From NCBI RefSeq assembly GCF_001624705.1, contig NZ_JSEO01000005.1:62001-126000 (forward strand): DNA of 64,000 nt, given 5' to 3'. The translations under genes and the position numbers were made by a program. Below the pieces are notes generated by a model. The model was not told the origin of the DNA. It did not search any database and worked only from the letters and a program-made list of their open reading frames with translations. How positions within the stretch are numbered: position 1 is the first letter of the stretch; each line of letters starts with the position of its first letter. Of the stretch, positions 28,834-37,977 are shown piece by piece. This stretch comes from Marinomonas sp. SBI8L. GTDB taxonomy: Bacteria; Pseudomonadota; Gammaproteobacteria; Pseudomonadales; Marinomonadaceae.

Positions 28834-29952
28834 ATGCATTGCTTAAAGTATTTTTTTACCCTAGCTAGCTTGATGTTATTCAGCCAGCTAAGTATGGCTA
28901 ATGAGCGAGACTTTTGGCTAGTTGACGAATTTATCGAGATGAACCCTGCACAAGAGCCAATTAGCCAATCTTTCTCTGAATTAGTCCGAAAACCCGCTAT
29001 TCCTCTGAGTGTCCCCCCACTGAAACCAGTCAAAATTGCCGTGGTTTATCCTGCAAATCAAATATCTGATTACTGGTTGAGAAGCATACGATCTTTTGAA
29101 GCTCGCCTAAAAGAGCTCGACATTCCGTATGAAATACAATCCTTCTTAACTCAAACAACCAATAACAACTCCCTTAATGAGCAAGCTAAAGAGATCTTAA
29201 CCGCCGTAAATTCAGGCGCAGATTACCTAATCCTGACCCTGTATAAGAAGCAACACAAATCCATCATAGAACGCCTTATCTCTGATAAAAAAACAAAAGT
29301 TATTTTGCAGAATATCACCACACCCATTAAGGATTGGGACAACCAGCAACCTTTCTTATATGTTGGCTTTGACCATGTAAAAGGCACACAACTTCTTTCT
29401 AATTGGTACCAAGATCAAAAGTTACATAGCAATGAATATGGCTTACTCCATTTCCCGAAAGGCTATATTAGCCAAGTAAGAGGTGACAGTTTCGCGCAAT
29501 ATACAGGAGTAAATTCTGACTACAAGTTAGTTAGCAGTTACTATACAGATTCTACTAGGAAAAATTCTTACTCTAACGCAATAAACCTACTTGAAGAGCA
29601 CAACAACCTTGGCTTTATTTATGCGAGCTCTACCGACATCGCTCTAGGTGTCAGTGATGCAATTTCGGAAAAAGGATTACAAAATAAAGTATTGGTGAAT
29701 GGCTGGGGTGGCGGAAGCGCTGAGTTAGCTGCCATAGAAAAAGGTAAATTAGACGTAACTGTCATGCGTATGAACGACGATAATGGCGTTGCTATGGCAG
29801 AAGCAATTAAACTAGATTTAGGCGGTAATGAAGAAAAGGTGCCCGTGATTTACAGTGGTGATTATGTTGTTGTTACAAAAGAGTCTAGTCCTGCTAAAAT
29901 TCAATCACTCAAACAACAAGCGTTTCGCTATTCAGGCGTCGATGACAAATAG
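28834..29952 (+). CDS. luxP: Autoinducer-2 periplasmic binding protein LuxP
   Basis: This 372-residue periplasmic protein has a signal peptide (about 1-22, cleavage before NERD) and closely parallels Vibrio LuxP throughout. All the AI-2 and borate contact residues I can recall are conserved at nearly the same positions: Gln76, Ser78 and Trp81 (ANQISDYW), Asn160 (LQNITTP), Arg216 (VRGD), Thr267 and Asp268 (SSTDIALG), Trp291 (NGWGGGSAEL) and Arg312 (VMRMNDD). In Vibrio, ligand-bound LuxP controls the kinase/phosphatase balance of LuxQ. The kinase gene follows after 20 bp. This is far closer to LuxP than to TorT or sugar-binding proteins. Confidence 0.93.
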   Translation: MHCLKYFFTLASLMLFSQLSMANERDFWLVDEFIEMNPAQEPISQSFSELVRKPAIPLSVPPLKPVKIAVVYPANQISDYWLRSIRSFEARLKELDIPYEIQSFLTQTTNNNSLNEQAKEILTAVNSGADYLILTLYKKQHKSIIERLISDKKTKVILQNITTPIKDWDNQQPFLYVGFDHVKGTQLLSNWYQDQKLHSNEYGLLHFPKGYISQVRGDSFAQYTGVNSDYKLVSSYYTDSTRKNSYSNAINLLEEHNNLGFIYASSTDIALGVSDAISEKGLQNKVLVNGWGGGSAELAAIEKGKLDVTVMRMNDDNGVAMAEAIKLDLGGNEEKVPVIYSGDYVVVTKESSPAKIQSLKQQAFRYSGVDDK

Positions 29953-29972
29953 GCAACATTAGGAAGAAACTA

Positions 29973-31814
29973 ATGAACAAGGTTCGTTCTCTCTACAAGG
30001 TACCTTTATTTGTTGCTATTTCAACTATCATGTTGATTTTGTTTATGGCGGCGGCTGCCATTCAAGTTCGTTCTGTTTCTCGTATTGCCGATACGATAAT
30101 TGATAAGGAAGTTTCAAGCTTCACCCGTCAAACTCACACCAGCTTACAACTCTTCTTCGATAACGTCTTACAGCGTAACCAGCTTTTATTGCAAAGCTCT
30201 GCTGTTAACTTTCAGCTATTAAAATCATTAGAAGACAATGATTCATTAGCTATCATGCAAAACCTCAACTCTCTTTATAACTCAGAACCTAATTCTGGTA
30301 TGGAACTACTGTTTATTATCAGCCCAACCAATCAAGTTCTTTATGATGCCAGCTCCCCTTTCTTTAGTGATGAGCAGAGCCTAAGTGAGTTAAGCCAAAC
30401 ACCCACCAACATGTATAAATGGCGACTTGTTCCTATGAACATGGCTAGCAAGCAACAAGTCATTTTATTTAAAAAAGAAGCTTTAATTTCGCCTAAGAGT
30501 GGGAAAATTTTAGGCTATTTAGCAGGCGGTATCGTATTAAGTGGCCGTATTGCCATGCTTAACCAAGCTAGAAGCTATGTGGATATCGACAGTGTTGCCC
30601 TAAGGTACAATAATGAAATTCTTGCAGAAAGCACCAAGGGTAGCTTGATCATCCGCGATCATGTCAATGCCTTATTGACACCTAAAGCTCAAACAGAAGA
30701 AGAGCTTGCAGAATTGAAACCACAACTTAGCAAGTATAAAAATCACTTTGTTGGTCGTTATCCTATTATCATAGCCAACCTAGAATCTGAGTTAGAATTT
30801 ATTACCCTTTTATCAAGCTCTTCCTTTGACACCTTAAATACAGAATATAAGTATCAAGCGAGCTTTCTCTTAATCACCCTCTTTACCTTTGCCATTGTTG
30901 CCTCACTGATTGTGATTGGCATAGCAATCAGGCCTTTAATGCAGATTATTGCCGCCGCTCGACAAGCCATTGATAAAAATGAAGCCATGCAAACACAGAC
31001 AAGTGTGATTAAAGAATATGATGAGCTAGGTGGCACATTAAGTCAGTTGATTGAATCCTCCAGCACTCAAAAGCACGAGCTCAACCACCTAAACAAACAA
31101 CTAAAACAAAACGTAAAAGAGTTAGAGCAATCTAATAAAGAGTTAGACAATATTACTTATATTGCCTCCCATGACCTCAAGTCACCTCTAAGAGGGATTA
31201 GCCTGCTAACCCAATGGTTAAGCCATGAGTTAGGCAATAAATTACGCCCAGAAGCTAGTGATAAGATTCAGCTTTTAAGTCAAAGAGTAAATAGCATGGA
31301 AGCCATCTTAGAGCGCATGCTAGGTTATTCTAAAGTAGGTAAAAAAGGCCACGAACTCGCCCCTGTTGATAGTAAAAAACTCTGCCAAAGCGTTTTCTCG
31401 AATGCGCAGCATGATAAAGAAAACAGCTTAACTTTAAATGGTGACTTCCCTATTTTCACCACCTACCGTACGCCATTTGAGCAAGTTATGCGCCACTTGA
31501 TTGATAATGCGCTCAAGCATAACCCTTCACCTAAGGCACAGGTCAGTATCGAAGTCGAAGAACAAGAAGGTTATTACCACTTCAAGATTTCAGACAATGG
31601 CCCTGGCATATCAGCACCATTGCAAGCGGCAATACAATCTAACGAAACGCTGAACGATACCCCGCAATTATTGAATATAGGTATTGGCTTAAATATGGCG
31701 AAAAAAATCACTCGCCTTTATGAGGGTAAACTCACCATTATCTTAAGCAATGAAAGAGGCACCTCTATTCTCTTTACTTGGCCAGCGAGACCTTCGGCAC
31801 TTAATATAAATTAA
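29973..31814 (+). CDS. LuxQ-like AI-2 sensor histidine kinase without receiver domain
   Basis: This 613-residue inner-membrane kinase sits 20 bp after luxP. TM1 spans about 10-31 and TM2 about 297-318, enclosing a LuxQ-like periplasmic domain in which SPKSGKILGYLAGGIVL matches the LuxQ pattern. A HAMP-like linker and coiled coil lead to the DHp helix with phospho-acceptor His400 (ASHDLKSPLRG). The ATPase has the N box with Asn512 (DNALKHN), G1 DNGPGIS and G2 GIGLNMAKK. The protein ends here: unlike the roughly 860-residue hybrid LuxQ of Vibrio harveyi, there is no receiver domain. Its phosphate must go to a separate response regulator. The last 4 bp overlap the convergent SDR gene. Confidence 0.87.
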   Translation: MNKVRSLYKVPLFVAISTIMLILFMAAAAIQVRSVSRIADTIIDKEVSSFTRQTHTSLQLFFDNVLQRNQLLLQSSAVNFQLLKSLEDNDSLAIMQNLNSLYNSEPNSGMELLFIISPTNQVLYDASSPFFSDEQSLSELSQTPTNMYKWRLVPMNMASKQQVILFKKEALISPKSGKILGYLAGGIVLSGRIAMLNQARSYVDIDSVALRYNNEILAESTKGSLIIRDHVNALLTPKAQTEEELAELKPQLSKYKNHFVGRYPIIIANLESELEFITLLSSSSFDTLNTEYKYQASFLLITLFTFAIVASLIVIGIAIRPLMQIIAAARQAIDKNEAMQTQTSVIKEYDELGGTLSQLIESSSTQKHELNHLNKQLKQNVKELEQSNKELDNITYIASHDLKSPLRGISLLTQWLSHELGNKLRPEASDKIQLLSQRVNSMEAILERMLGYSKVGKKGHELAPVDSKKLCQSVFSNAQHDKENSLTLNGDFPIFTTYRTPFEQVMRHLIDNALKHNPSPKAQVSIEVEEQEGYYHFKISDNGPGISAPLQAAIQSNETLNDTPQLLNIGIGLNMAKKITRLYEGKLTIILSNERGTSILFTWPARPSALNIN

Positions 31815-37083: not shown

Positions 37084-37977
37084 TTGAAAGTACTAATCAT
37101 TGATGACAGTAGAGCCGTTCAACTCATCATTCGAAGAGCACTTGAAAAAGGCAATATAGAAAACCTAGAAACTAAGCTTGCCAGCTCAGGCATTCAAGCA
37201 TTAGCCATTTTAGAAGACTGGCACCCAGACCTTGTTCTATCTGATTTACATATGCCAAAAATGTCAGGTATAGAATTATTAACCGAAATAAATAGGCAAA
37301 TGCTTAAATTAAATGTCGGCTTAATTACTACAGAAACGGATGACTCACGCTTAAGAAAGGTAAAACAATGTGGGGTTAAGTTTATTATCAATAAACCCTT
37401 TAATGACACTGAGCTGCTTCAAAAAATTAAATTGTTTTTACCAACAGATAAACCGCTACTGGCTACACCTGAAATGCCGGCGCAAAAAACCAATATCAAA
37501 CTGGATAAGAACACCTTAAATCTACCTGAAGAAACTGAATTAGAAGATGCTTTAGCAGAAGTCTTTTTTAGGGATGTAAGAGTGACAACAAAAAGCTTTG
37601 AGAAATATGAATCTCAACAATACCCCTACCTTCTTGGCATGATGACACCTTTAGGCAAAGACCAAGTGAAAGCCATTTGCATACTAAAGCAGCCTGCTAT
37701 TAAACAGATCAGCACAGTATTTTCGAGCTTACACCCAGGAGCATTAAATAGTCAGCAGGATAGAGCATTACTCTGCGATCATTTTTTTCGTGTGTTAGAT
37801 AAGTTTATTATGCCAAGTGGCAGCATAGAATCCTTAGTGTTTAAAAAATCTAATCTCATCACTAAGCCTTTCGCTAAAATTGATGGTTTTTATCGCACCA
37901 AAAAGGAAAAGAAAAAAGATTATCTTATCGAAATTAAGGGCTTTGAATCCTTCGTTGTTACCCTAATAGCGGCCTAA
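37084..37977 (+). CDS. Response regulator with unknown C-terminal domain
   Basis: This 297-residue protein has a CheY-like receiver (1-115). Asp7 and Asp8, phospho-site Asp54 (LSDLHMPKMSG), Thr82/Thr83 and Lys104 (NKPF) are all present. Residues about 140-297 form a second domain that I did not recognise; it has a mixed alpha/beta look and no DNA-binding or GGDEF motif. The start is TTG at 37084 with only a weak ribosome site. No histidine kinase is adjacent, so the partner is unknown. It is divergent from the membrane coiled-coil gene. Confidence 0.78.
   Translation: MKVLIIDDSRAVQLIIRRALEKGNIENLETKLASSGIQALAILEDWHPDLVLSDLHMPKMSGIELLTEINRQMLKLNVGLITTETDDSRLRKVKQCGVKFIINKPFNDTELLQKIKLFLPTDKPLLATPEMPAQKTNIKLDKNTLNLPEETELEDALAEVFFRDVRVTTKSFEKYESQQYPYLLGMMTPLGKDQVKAICILKQPAIKQISTVFSSLHPGALNSQQDRALLCDHFFRVLDKFIMPSGSIESLVFKKSNLITKPFAKIDGFYRTKKEKKKDYLIEIKGFESFVVTLIAA

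Follow-up and report, generated by a model that had tools for sequence, protein, structure and literature searches.

The closest described counterpart of the locus analysed here, a luxP gene followed by the gene for a LuxQ-like sensor kinase (LuxQ613) in a 64,000-nucleotide stretch of the Marinomonas sp. SBI8L genome (contig NZ_JSEO01000005.1, positions 62,001 to 126,000; hereafter the window), is the LuxP-LuxQ-LuxU-LuxO circuit of Vibrio, with which it shares the nine residues of the autoinducer-2 (AI-2) pocket, the LuxQ periplasmic fold, the luxP-luxQ gene order and the possession of luxS. It differs from that circuit in that the window kinase has neither a receiver nor a listed PAS domain, in that its catalytic core belongs to another family, and in that no LuxU or LuxO exceeded the curated cut-offs among the seven SBI8L candidates scanned (six NtrC-type regulators and one histidine phosphotransfer (Hpt) protein, a non-exhaustive set). 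The pair is a real and conserved variant in which the LuxPQ input is carried on a foreign kinase core.

LuxP homologues outside the Vibrionales were noted by Rezzonico and Duffy (2008; PMC2561040), yet LuxPQ was judged to be restricted to the Vibrionales, and species without the full set of luxP, luxQ, luxU and luxO were not scored as positive. The Oceanospirillales homologues described there, in Marinomonas sp. MED121 and Neptuniibacter MED92, resemble the present case in that a LuxP-like protein lies beside regulators unlike Vibrio LuxQ; however, the MED121 protein is given as 24.5% identical and both strains as luxS-negative, whereas window LuxP is 46–47% identical to four Vibrio LuxPs and its genome carries luxS. 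The AsrK-AsrR system of Vibrio furnissii (PMC11796354) likewise combines an AI-2-sensing kinase with a separate response regulator and an output through cyclic diguanylate (c-di-GMP), but AI-2 is bound directly by a dCache_1 domain, the HD-GYP regulator is adjacent and LuxP has no part in that step. The MrrA hub of Caulobacter (PMC5964349), in which several kinases feed one single-domain regulator, is alphaproteobacterial and serves as a precedent for topology only, not for homology. LuxP was portrayed as a sensor-domain-only protein in PMC12268683. No publication found in the literature searched describes a kinase coupled to LuxP whose core has been exchanged, and none related to a receiver-less LuxQ or to a CHASE kinase with a REC-GGDEF-EAL protein.

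Homology to solved LuxP spans the whole mature window protein (residues 26–367; E about 1e-104); the Vibrio LuxPQ sequences used for comparison were drawn from the plasmids collection. The earlier note on this DNA had reported a LuxP homologue with its AI-2 contacts kept (Gln76, Ser78, Trp81, Asn160, Arg216, Thr267, Asp268, Trp291 and Arg312), and the alignment bears this out, with 9/9 positions matching Vibrio LuxP; seven of the contacts are named in PMC9687752. The luxS gene, which that note proposed to look for in the full genome, was found there. Judging from its sequence, the ligand of window LuxP is likely to be AI-2. Three receptors picked at random from the 267 LuxP-type receptors counted in PMC12268683 are reported there to bind AI-2.

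The N-terminal part of LuxQ613 is LuxQ-like. The predicted structure of residues 35–295 gave 3c30, 3c38, 2hje, 2hj9 and 1zhh as its best matches, and a spurious LuxQ assignment is ruled out by this fold together with the hidden Markov model (HMM) match to LuxQ-periplasm. Against the LuxQ_Vibrio model (NF041947) the window kinase scored 146.6 bits, short of the cut-off of 1200, in two stretches, of which the best, the one whose position is known, covers residues 18–373; its orthologue in a second species of the genus (G775) scored 135.9 bits, the best stretch again being 18–373. Two control LuxQs of Vibrio gave full-length matches (1319 and 1300 bits), and the hybrid LuxQ of another genus was matched over residues 4–792 at 654 bits, also below the cut-off. 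The Pfam scan returned no receiver in the window kinase, CHASE gave no match at E ≤ 1, and no PAS domain was listed, whereas the hybrid LuxQ of locus L026 has one. Vibrio LuxQ also contains a PAS domain. The HMM, fold and receiver scans thus agree with the initial description of a 613-residue kinase with a LuxQ-like periplasmic domain and no receiver.

The catalytic core is of a different origin. Its H-box reads SHDLKSPLRGI, as against SHE(L/I)RTP(L/I)NGI in the Vibrio LuxQs. In a first core tree of 43 rows, with an unconverged bootstrap and long-branch warnings, the window core grouped with regulator-linked kinases (support 100/97 and 99/95), and the same grouping (100/99) was recovered in a second tree, to which the G775 orthologue had been added and from which six long-branch rows had been removed, one long-branch warning being left. 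One sequence (par_L091_821) was left out before the first tree, its match not being significant, and the SBI8L matches L144, L145 and L148 and three paralogue partner proteins, which show no core match, are outside the trees. The receiver-loss hypothesis predicts a single clade of the two window-type cores and four Vibrio LuxQ cores. This grouping, chosen for testing with the first tree already in view, lowered the log-likelihood by 92 and was rejected by the approximately unbiased (AU) test (p-AU 1.5e-44). The exact place of the window core within its new group is poorly fixed. On this evidence LuxQ613 is very probably a chimaera of a LuxP/LuxQ input and a foreign kinase core. The idea, put forward in the earlier note, that the receiver was lost is not supported in that form, the core itself being of another family and the best LuxQ_Vibrio match stopping at residue 373.

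The window-type LuxP is present in 2/49 genomes of the genus, namely SBI8L (G000) and G775, with 75% identity between them; the G775 kinase also has 613 residues and is 77% identical to that of the window. Both species share the gene order NAD-glutamate dehydrogenase, argD-like, hydrolase, luxP, kinase, SDR, fghA-like and adhC-like, most of the flanking names being our own reading of the sequences. An orthologue of equal length in an equal gene order makes a frameshift unlikely, and, together with the lack of any receiver remnant just past 31814, where the note had suggested looking for one, it excludes a loss of the receiver by frameshift or misassembly. Between the two kinase genes, nonsynonymous divergence (dN) is 0.156 and synonymous divergence (dS) 2.79, giving a dN/dS of 0.056, which is rough because dS is near saturation; no ratio could be obtained for luxP, nor for three of the kinase's seven parts. 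By part, identity is 83% in HisKA, 82% in HATPase and 75% in the periplasmic domain. As read from this comparison, the kinase gene is under purifying selection and its receiver-less form is kept by selection, and the low ratio, rough as it is, disfavours a pseudogene. The features are collected in Table 1.

Table 1. Features of the luxP-luxQ613 locus and of the regulators considered as partners (window coordinates unless a contig is named)
Feature	Coordinates	Strand	Basis or remark
luxP, 372 amino acids, homologue of the periplasmic AI-2-binding protein	28834..29952	+	homology, domain scan
Nine AI-2-pocket codons, Q76 to R312	29059..29769	+	all equal to Vibrio LuxP residues
LuxQ-like sensor histidine kinase (LuxQ613), very probably chimaeric, 613 amino acids, without receiver	29973..31814	+	domain and model scans
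LuxQ-type periplasmic domain, residues 41-241	30093..30695	+	Pfam PF09308, E 8.9e-26; fold match
Junction, helical linker between LuxQ-like half and non-LuxQ core, residues 374-395	31092..31157	+	best LuxQ_Vibrio stretch stops at 373; core homology starts about here
HisKA domain, residues 396-455; His400 at 31170-31172	31158..31337	+	Pfam, alignment
HATPase_c domain, residues 500-606	31470..31790	+	Pfam
Degenerate ATP lid: second Phe of F-box missing, shortened, first Gly of G2-box replaced by Asn	31623..31688	+	alignment; similar in G775 orthologue
REC protein, 297 amino acids, receiver at residues 3-116	37084-37977	same as luxPQ	Pfam; 5.3 kb downstream; C-terminal half without assignment
Candidate single-domain regulator, 137 amino acids	G000:C10:64439-64849		adjoins CHASE-PAS kinase of the same core family

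The relatives of this core outside the locus point to the kind of partner that it may have. A core-only search of 390 genomes of one order, that of the window included, found it in 19 genomes at E ≤ 1e-34, with up to seven candidates scored per genome (five in the LuxP searches described below), so that the counts are lower bounds. In 20 stretches from 18 other genomes, picked by core similarity alone, a small regulator of 133–155 residues, which may be Rcp1-like and which resembles the single-domain regulator on contig C10 of SBI8L, lies within a few genes in 18/20 (exceptions L206 and L212). In 16/20 there is also a protein that aligns, across the REC, GGDEF and EAL domains, with the L209 protein, in which Pfam confirms all three; the remaining four hold the REC-GGDEF part (L201), the GGDEF-EAL part (L216) or neither (L200 and L210). 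All five core relatives scanned have sensors of the CHASE type (CHASE in L150, L151, L152 and L209, CHASE3 in L201). No small regulator gene lies beside the window kinase gene. Within SBI8L, the window-type core recurs at C23:96724, C2:45629 and C10:63732 (all E < 1e-31), and of these three loci (14 kb fetched) only C10:63732 adjoins a small regulator. G775 keeps the corresponding kinase and regulator, the latter 69% identical, and has a second such regulator at C4, adjoining a REC-GGDEF protein. Matches to the C10 regulator at E ≤ 1e-50 are found, among the 49 genus genomes, only in SBI8L and G775; its next-best match in SBI8L (E 3.5e-10, 35% identity) is a 142-residue single-domain regulator at C1. 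The REC-GGDEF-EAL gene next to the C10 regulator (about 64876–66570; L152:7877-9568) is broken by at least one in-frame stop, and no such gene was present in the 15 kb fetched around the corresponding place in G775. Both luxPQ species thus retain the kinase-regulator pair, while the enzyme that usually accompanies it is disrupted or missing.

We propose that the linker ahead of HisKA connects a LuxP/LuxQ-periplasmic input to a DHp-CA core from a different kinase family, and that LuxP, on binding AI-2 or an AI-2-like ligand, would shift the kinase/phosphatase balance of LuxQ613. The latter would exchange phosphate directly with a separate receiver, for which the C10 regulator is the leading candidate, and as many as four kinases might share this regulator as a hub, in the manner of MrrA. 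A separate output is plausible because PMC11796354 describes an AI-2 kinase of the dCache type whose c-di-GMP regulator is a protein of its own. The AI-2 signal, known chiefly from Vibrio, is probably read through a circuit unlike the one there, and what the earlier note had said of a separate output regulator and a different wiring is supported. By analogy with the habits of the core family, we lean slightly towards a single-domain regulator as the direct partner of LuxQ613; that this is the C10 regulator in particular seems possible, at a little under an even chance. For the whole explanation, in which LuxP and AI-2 control a chimaeric kinase/phosphatase that acts on a C10-type regulator, we estimate a probability of about 0.55.

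Several observations weigh against this proposal. The branch of the window core is long (1.9 changes per column), and the trees carry the warnings given above. Of the parts compared between the two species, the degenerate ATP lid is the most divergent (68% identity over 22 residues), and kinase activity is not assured: it may be low, with phosphatase action perhaps prevailing. The candidate regulator is encoded on a different contig, next to a CHASE-PAS kinase of its own, so that only family resemblance links it to LuxQ613, and its co-occurrence with luxPQ may reflect shared ancestry. A more distant core at C1:96580 has the 142-residue regulator mentioned above as its own. A c-di-GMP output by way of the neighbouring enzyme may be dead, because the REC-GGDEF-EAL gene is interrupted in SBI8L and absent from the 15 kb of G775. 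Finally, the SBI8L genome contains 88 receiver matches, any of which is a possible partner.

That abundance of receivers speaks for the view that the chimaera is real and has another partner, such as an orphan DNA-binding regulator or the REC protein 5.3 kb downstream, which is kept in G775 (63% identity, with a Pfam receiver). However, six open reading frames and changes of strand separate the kinase from this REC protein, and the usual neighbours of the core family are small regulators; we regard such a partner as unlikely. The lid bears on a second alternative, in which LuxQ613 acts mainly as a phosphatase under signal control, or as a pseudokinase governing the CHASE kinases of the same core family, for instance as a heterodimer or a phosphate sink. 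Each of the other 35 sequences in the core alignment has the second Phe of the F-box, which the window kinase (reading AAIQSNETLNDTPQLLNIGIGL) and, by eye, its orthologue (reading AEFQTTESLNDSPSLLNIGIGL) lack; the lid loop is shorter in the window kinase, and the first Gly of the G2-box is Asn in both. This Gly is not otherwise invariant in the family, being replaced by Ser in L209 and L215 and by Asn in the second, truncated kinase of L153, so that the argument leans chiefly on the F-box and on the shortening of the loop. The degenerate lid makes a slow kinase or a mainly phosphatase action likely, and its presence in both species, the long branch of the core and the three further SBI8L kinases of this core family all favour the alternative. 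Against it, the H, N and G1 motifs look intact by eye, and HisKA and HATPase are better kept than the periplasmic part. HisKA_3 kinases, too, function without a canonical F-box. This alternative is improbable in our judgement; the earlier description of a complete ATPase is nevertheless too strong. The last alternative, an ordinary LuxQ from which the receiver (and PAS) was deleted and for which a separate receiver steps in, possibly still feeding LuxU and LuxO, could draw on the LuxQ match of the N-terminal 373 residues and on a stand-alone 121-residue Hpt protein with a weak LuxU match, but it is very improbable, for the core is not a LuxQ core (trees, H-box) and the AU test disfavours it, the LuxU match of 32 bits is far under the 140-bit cut-off, none of the six NtrC-type regulators scanned (not an exhaustive set) scores above 357 bits where the LuxO cut-off is 800, and transfer of phosphate from a kinase to an Hpt protein is not expected unless a receiver stands in the chain.

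The distribution of LuxP beyond Vibrio sets the SBI8L pair among other LuxP loci with varied outputs. A LuxP-like protein was found at E ≤ 1e-20 in 33 of the 390 order genomes; 15 of these hold a closer kind of LuxP (16 proteins including that of the window, the others 40–46% identical to it), and the remaining 18 hold only a paralogue of 25–30% identity. A class-wide search added one genome, G708 (2/369 including SBI8L), with no Vibrio among the matches, and a search of genome contigs for related loci gave one distant kinase locus and nothing more. All nine pocket residues are kept in 15 of the 16 closer LuxPs (8/9 in the other) and in those of G775 and G708, as against 2–6 in eight aligned paralogues and 6 and 7 in two alphaproteobacterial plasmid homologues. 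The partners at the 18 closer loci outside Vibrio (the 16 proteins with G775 and G708) comprise HisKA_3-HATPase proteins (8), PAS-HisKA-HATPase proteins (3, with HisKA under the Pfam cut-off), GGDEF-EAL proteins (3), HisKA-HATPase proteins without receiver or PAS (2, the window and G775), a hybrid with two receiver stretches (1) and a PAS-PAS protein without an output domain (1). Because 17/18 of these partners lack a receiver (the hybrid alone has one), the unusual feature of LuxQ613 is its replaced core and not the lack of a receiver. A Pfam LuxQ-periplasm match is listed for 9/18 partners, two of them below the curated cut-off; the other partners would be LuxQ-like sensors by virtue of their pairing with LuxP. 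The AI-2 input looks like a movable module, because it occurs in 15/390 genomes, because 15/16 of the LuxPs keep all nine contacts and because the partners are of at least five output types. At one of the closer loci, L028:7909-9684 (G312), the partner has LuxQ periplasmic and PAS domains without an output domain; it is related to residues 6–574 of the PAS-PAS-GGDEF-EAL partner of L032, and no credible GGDEF-EAL remnant was found.

The luxS gene was found in 11/16 tested genomes with a closer LuxP (G775 being outside the test), with no match in G001, G006, G049, G258 and G708, and in 17/17 other tested genomes of the window's genus (18/18 counting SBI8L). Closer-LuxP genomes without a luxS match would be AI-2 listeners only. 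In G708 (L175:6816-10821), a LuxP with 9/9 pocket residues is directly followed by a GGDEF-EAL protein, a possible AI-2 listener acting straight on c-di-GMP.

Two more distant LuxP relatives were also observed. On plasmid pRA01 of Roseicitreum antarcticum (L162:5986-7122), a LuxP-like protein of 33% identity with 7/9 pocket residues is encoded in an ABC-transporter cluster near an annotated lsrK (autoinducer-2 kinase) and an RbsD/FucU family gene, which raises the question of whether it is an Lsr-like uptake protein. On contig C69 of SBI8L (about 208100–212500; L042:7126-11466), a LuxP paralogue of 26% identity with 2/9 pocket residues is clustered with an 860-residue partner (a weak LuxQ-periplasm match below the cut-off, Pfam giving nothing else at E ≤ 0.001) and a PNP_UDP_1 nucleosidase. 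By open reading frame lengths alone, this cluster is also present at 10 further loci fetched from the genus, and it resembles the MED121_11334-11344 cluster of PMC2561040; MED121 was reported there as luxS-negative, unlike the genomes of the genus tested here.

More broadly, and tentatively, LuxP and the LuxQ periplasmic domain might form a portable module for AI-2 input that, outside Vibrio, has been combined time and again with a variety of outputs and that, in this genus, would have been grafted onto the core of CHASE kinases with single-domain regulators, so that AI-2 and CHASE-ligand signals would converge on one shared regulator hub; we consider this wider picture rather unlikely to hold in full. 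A movable AI-2 module would in any case provide a natural set of chimaeras from which the transmembrane signalling of LuxP and LuxQ may be learned, and the luxPQ pair of the window is a clean case, with an orthologue at hand for comparison.

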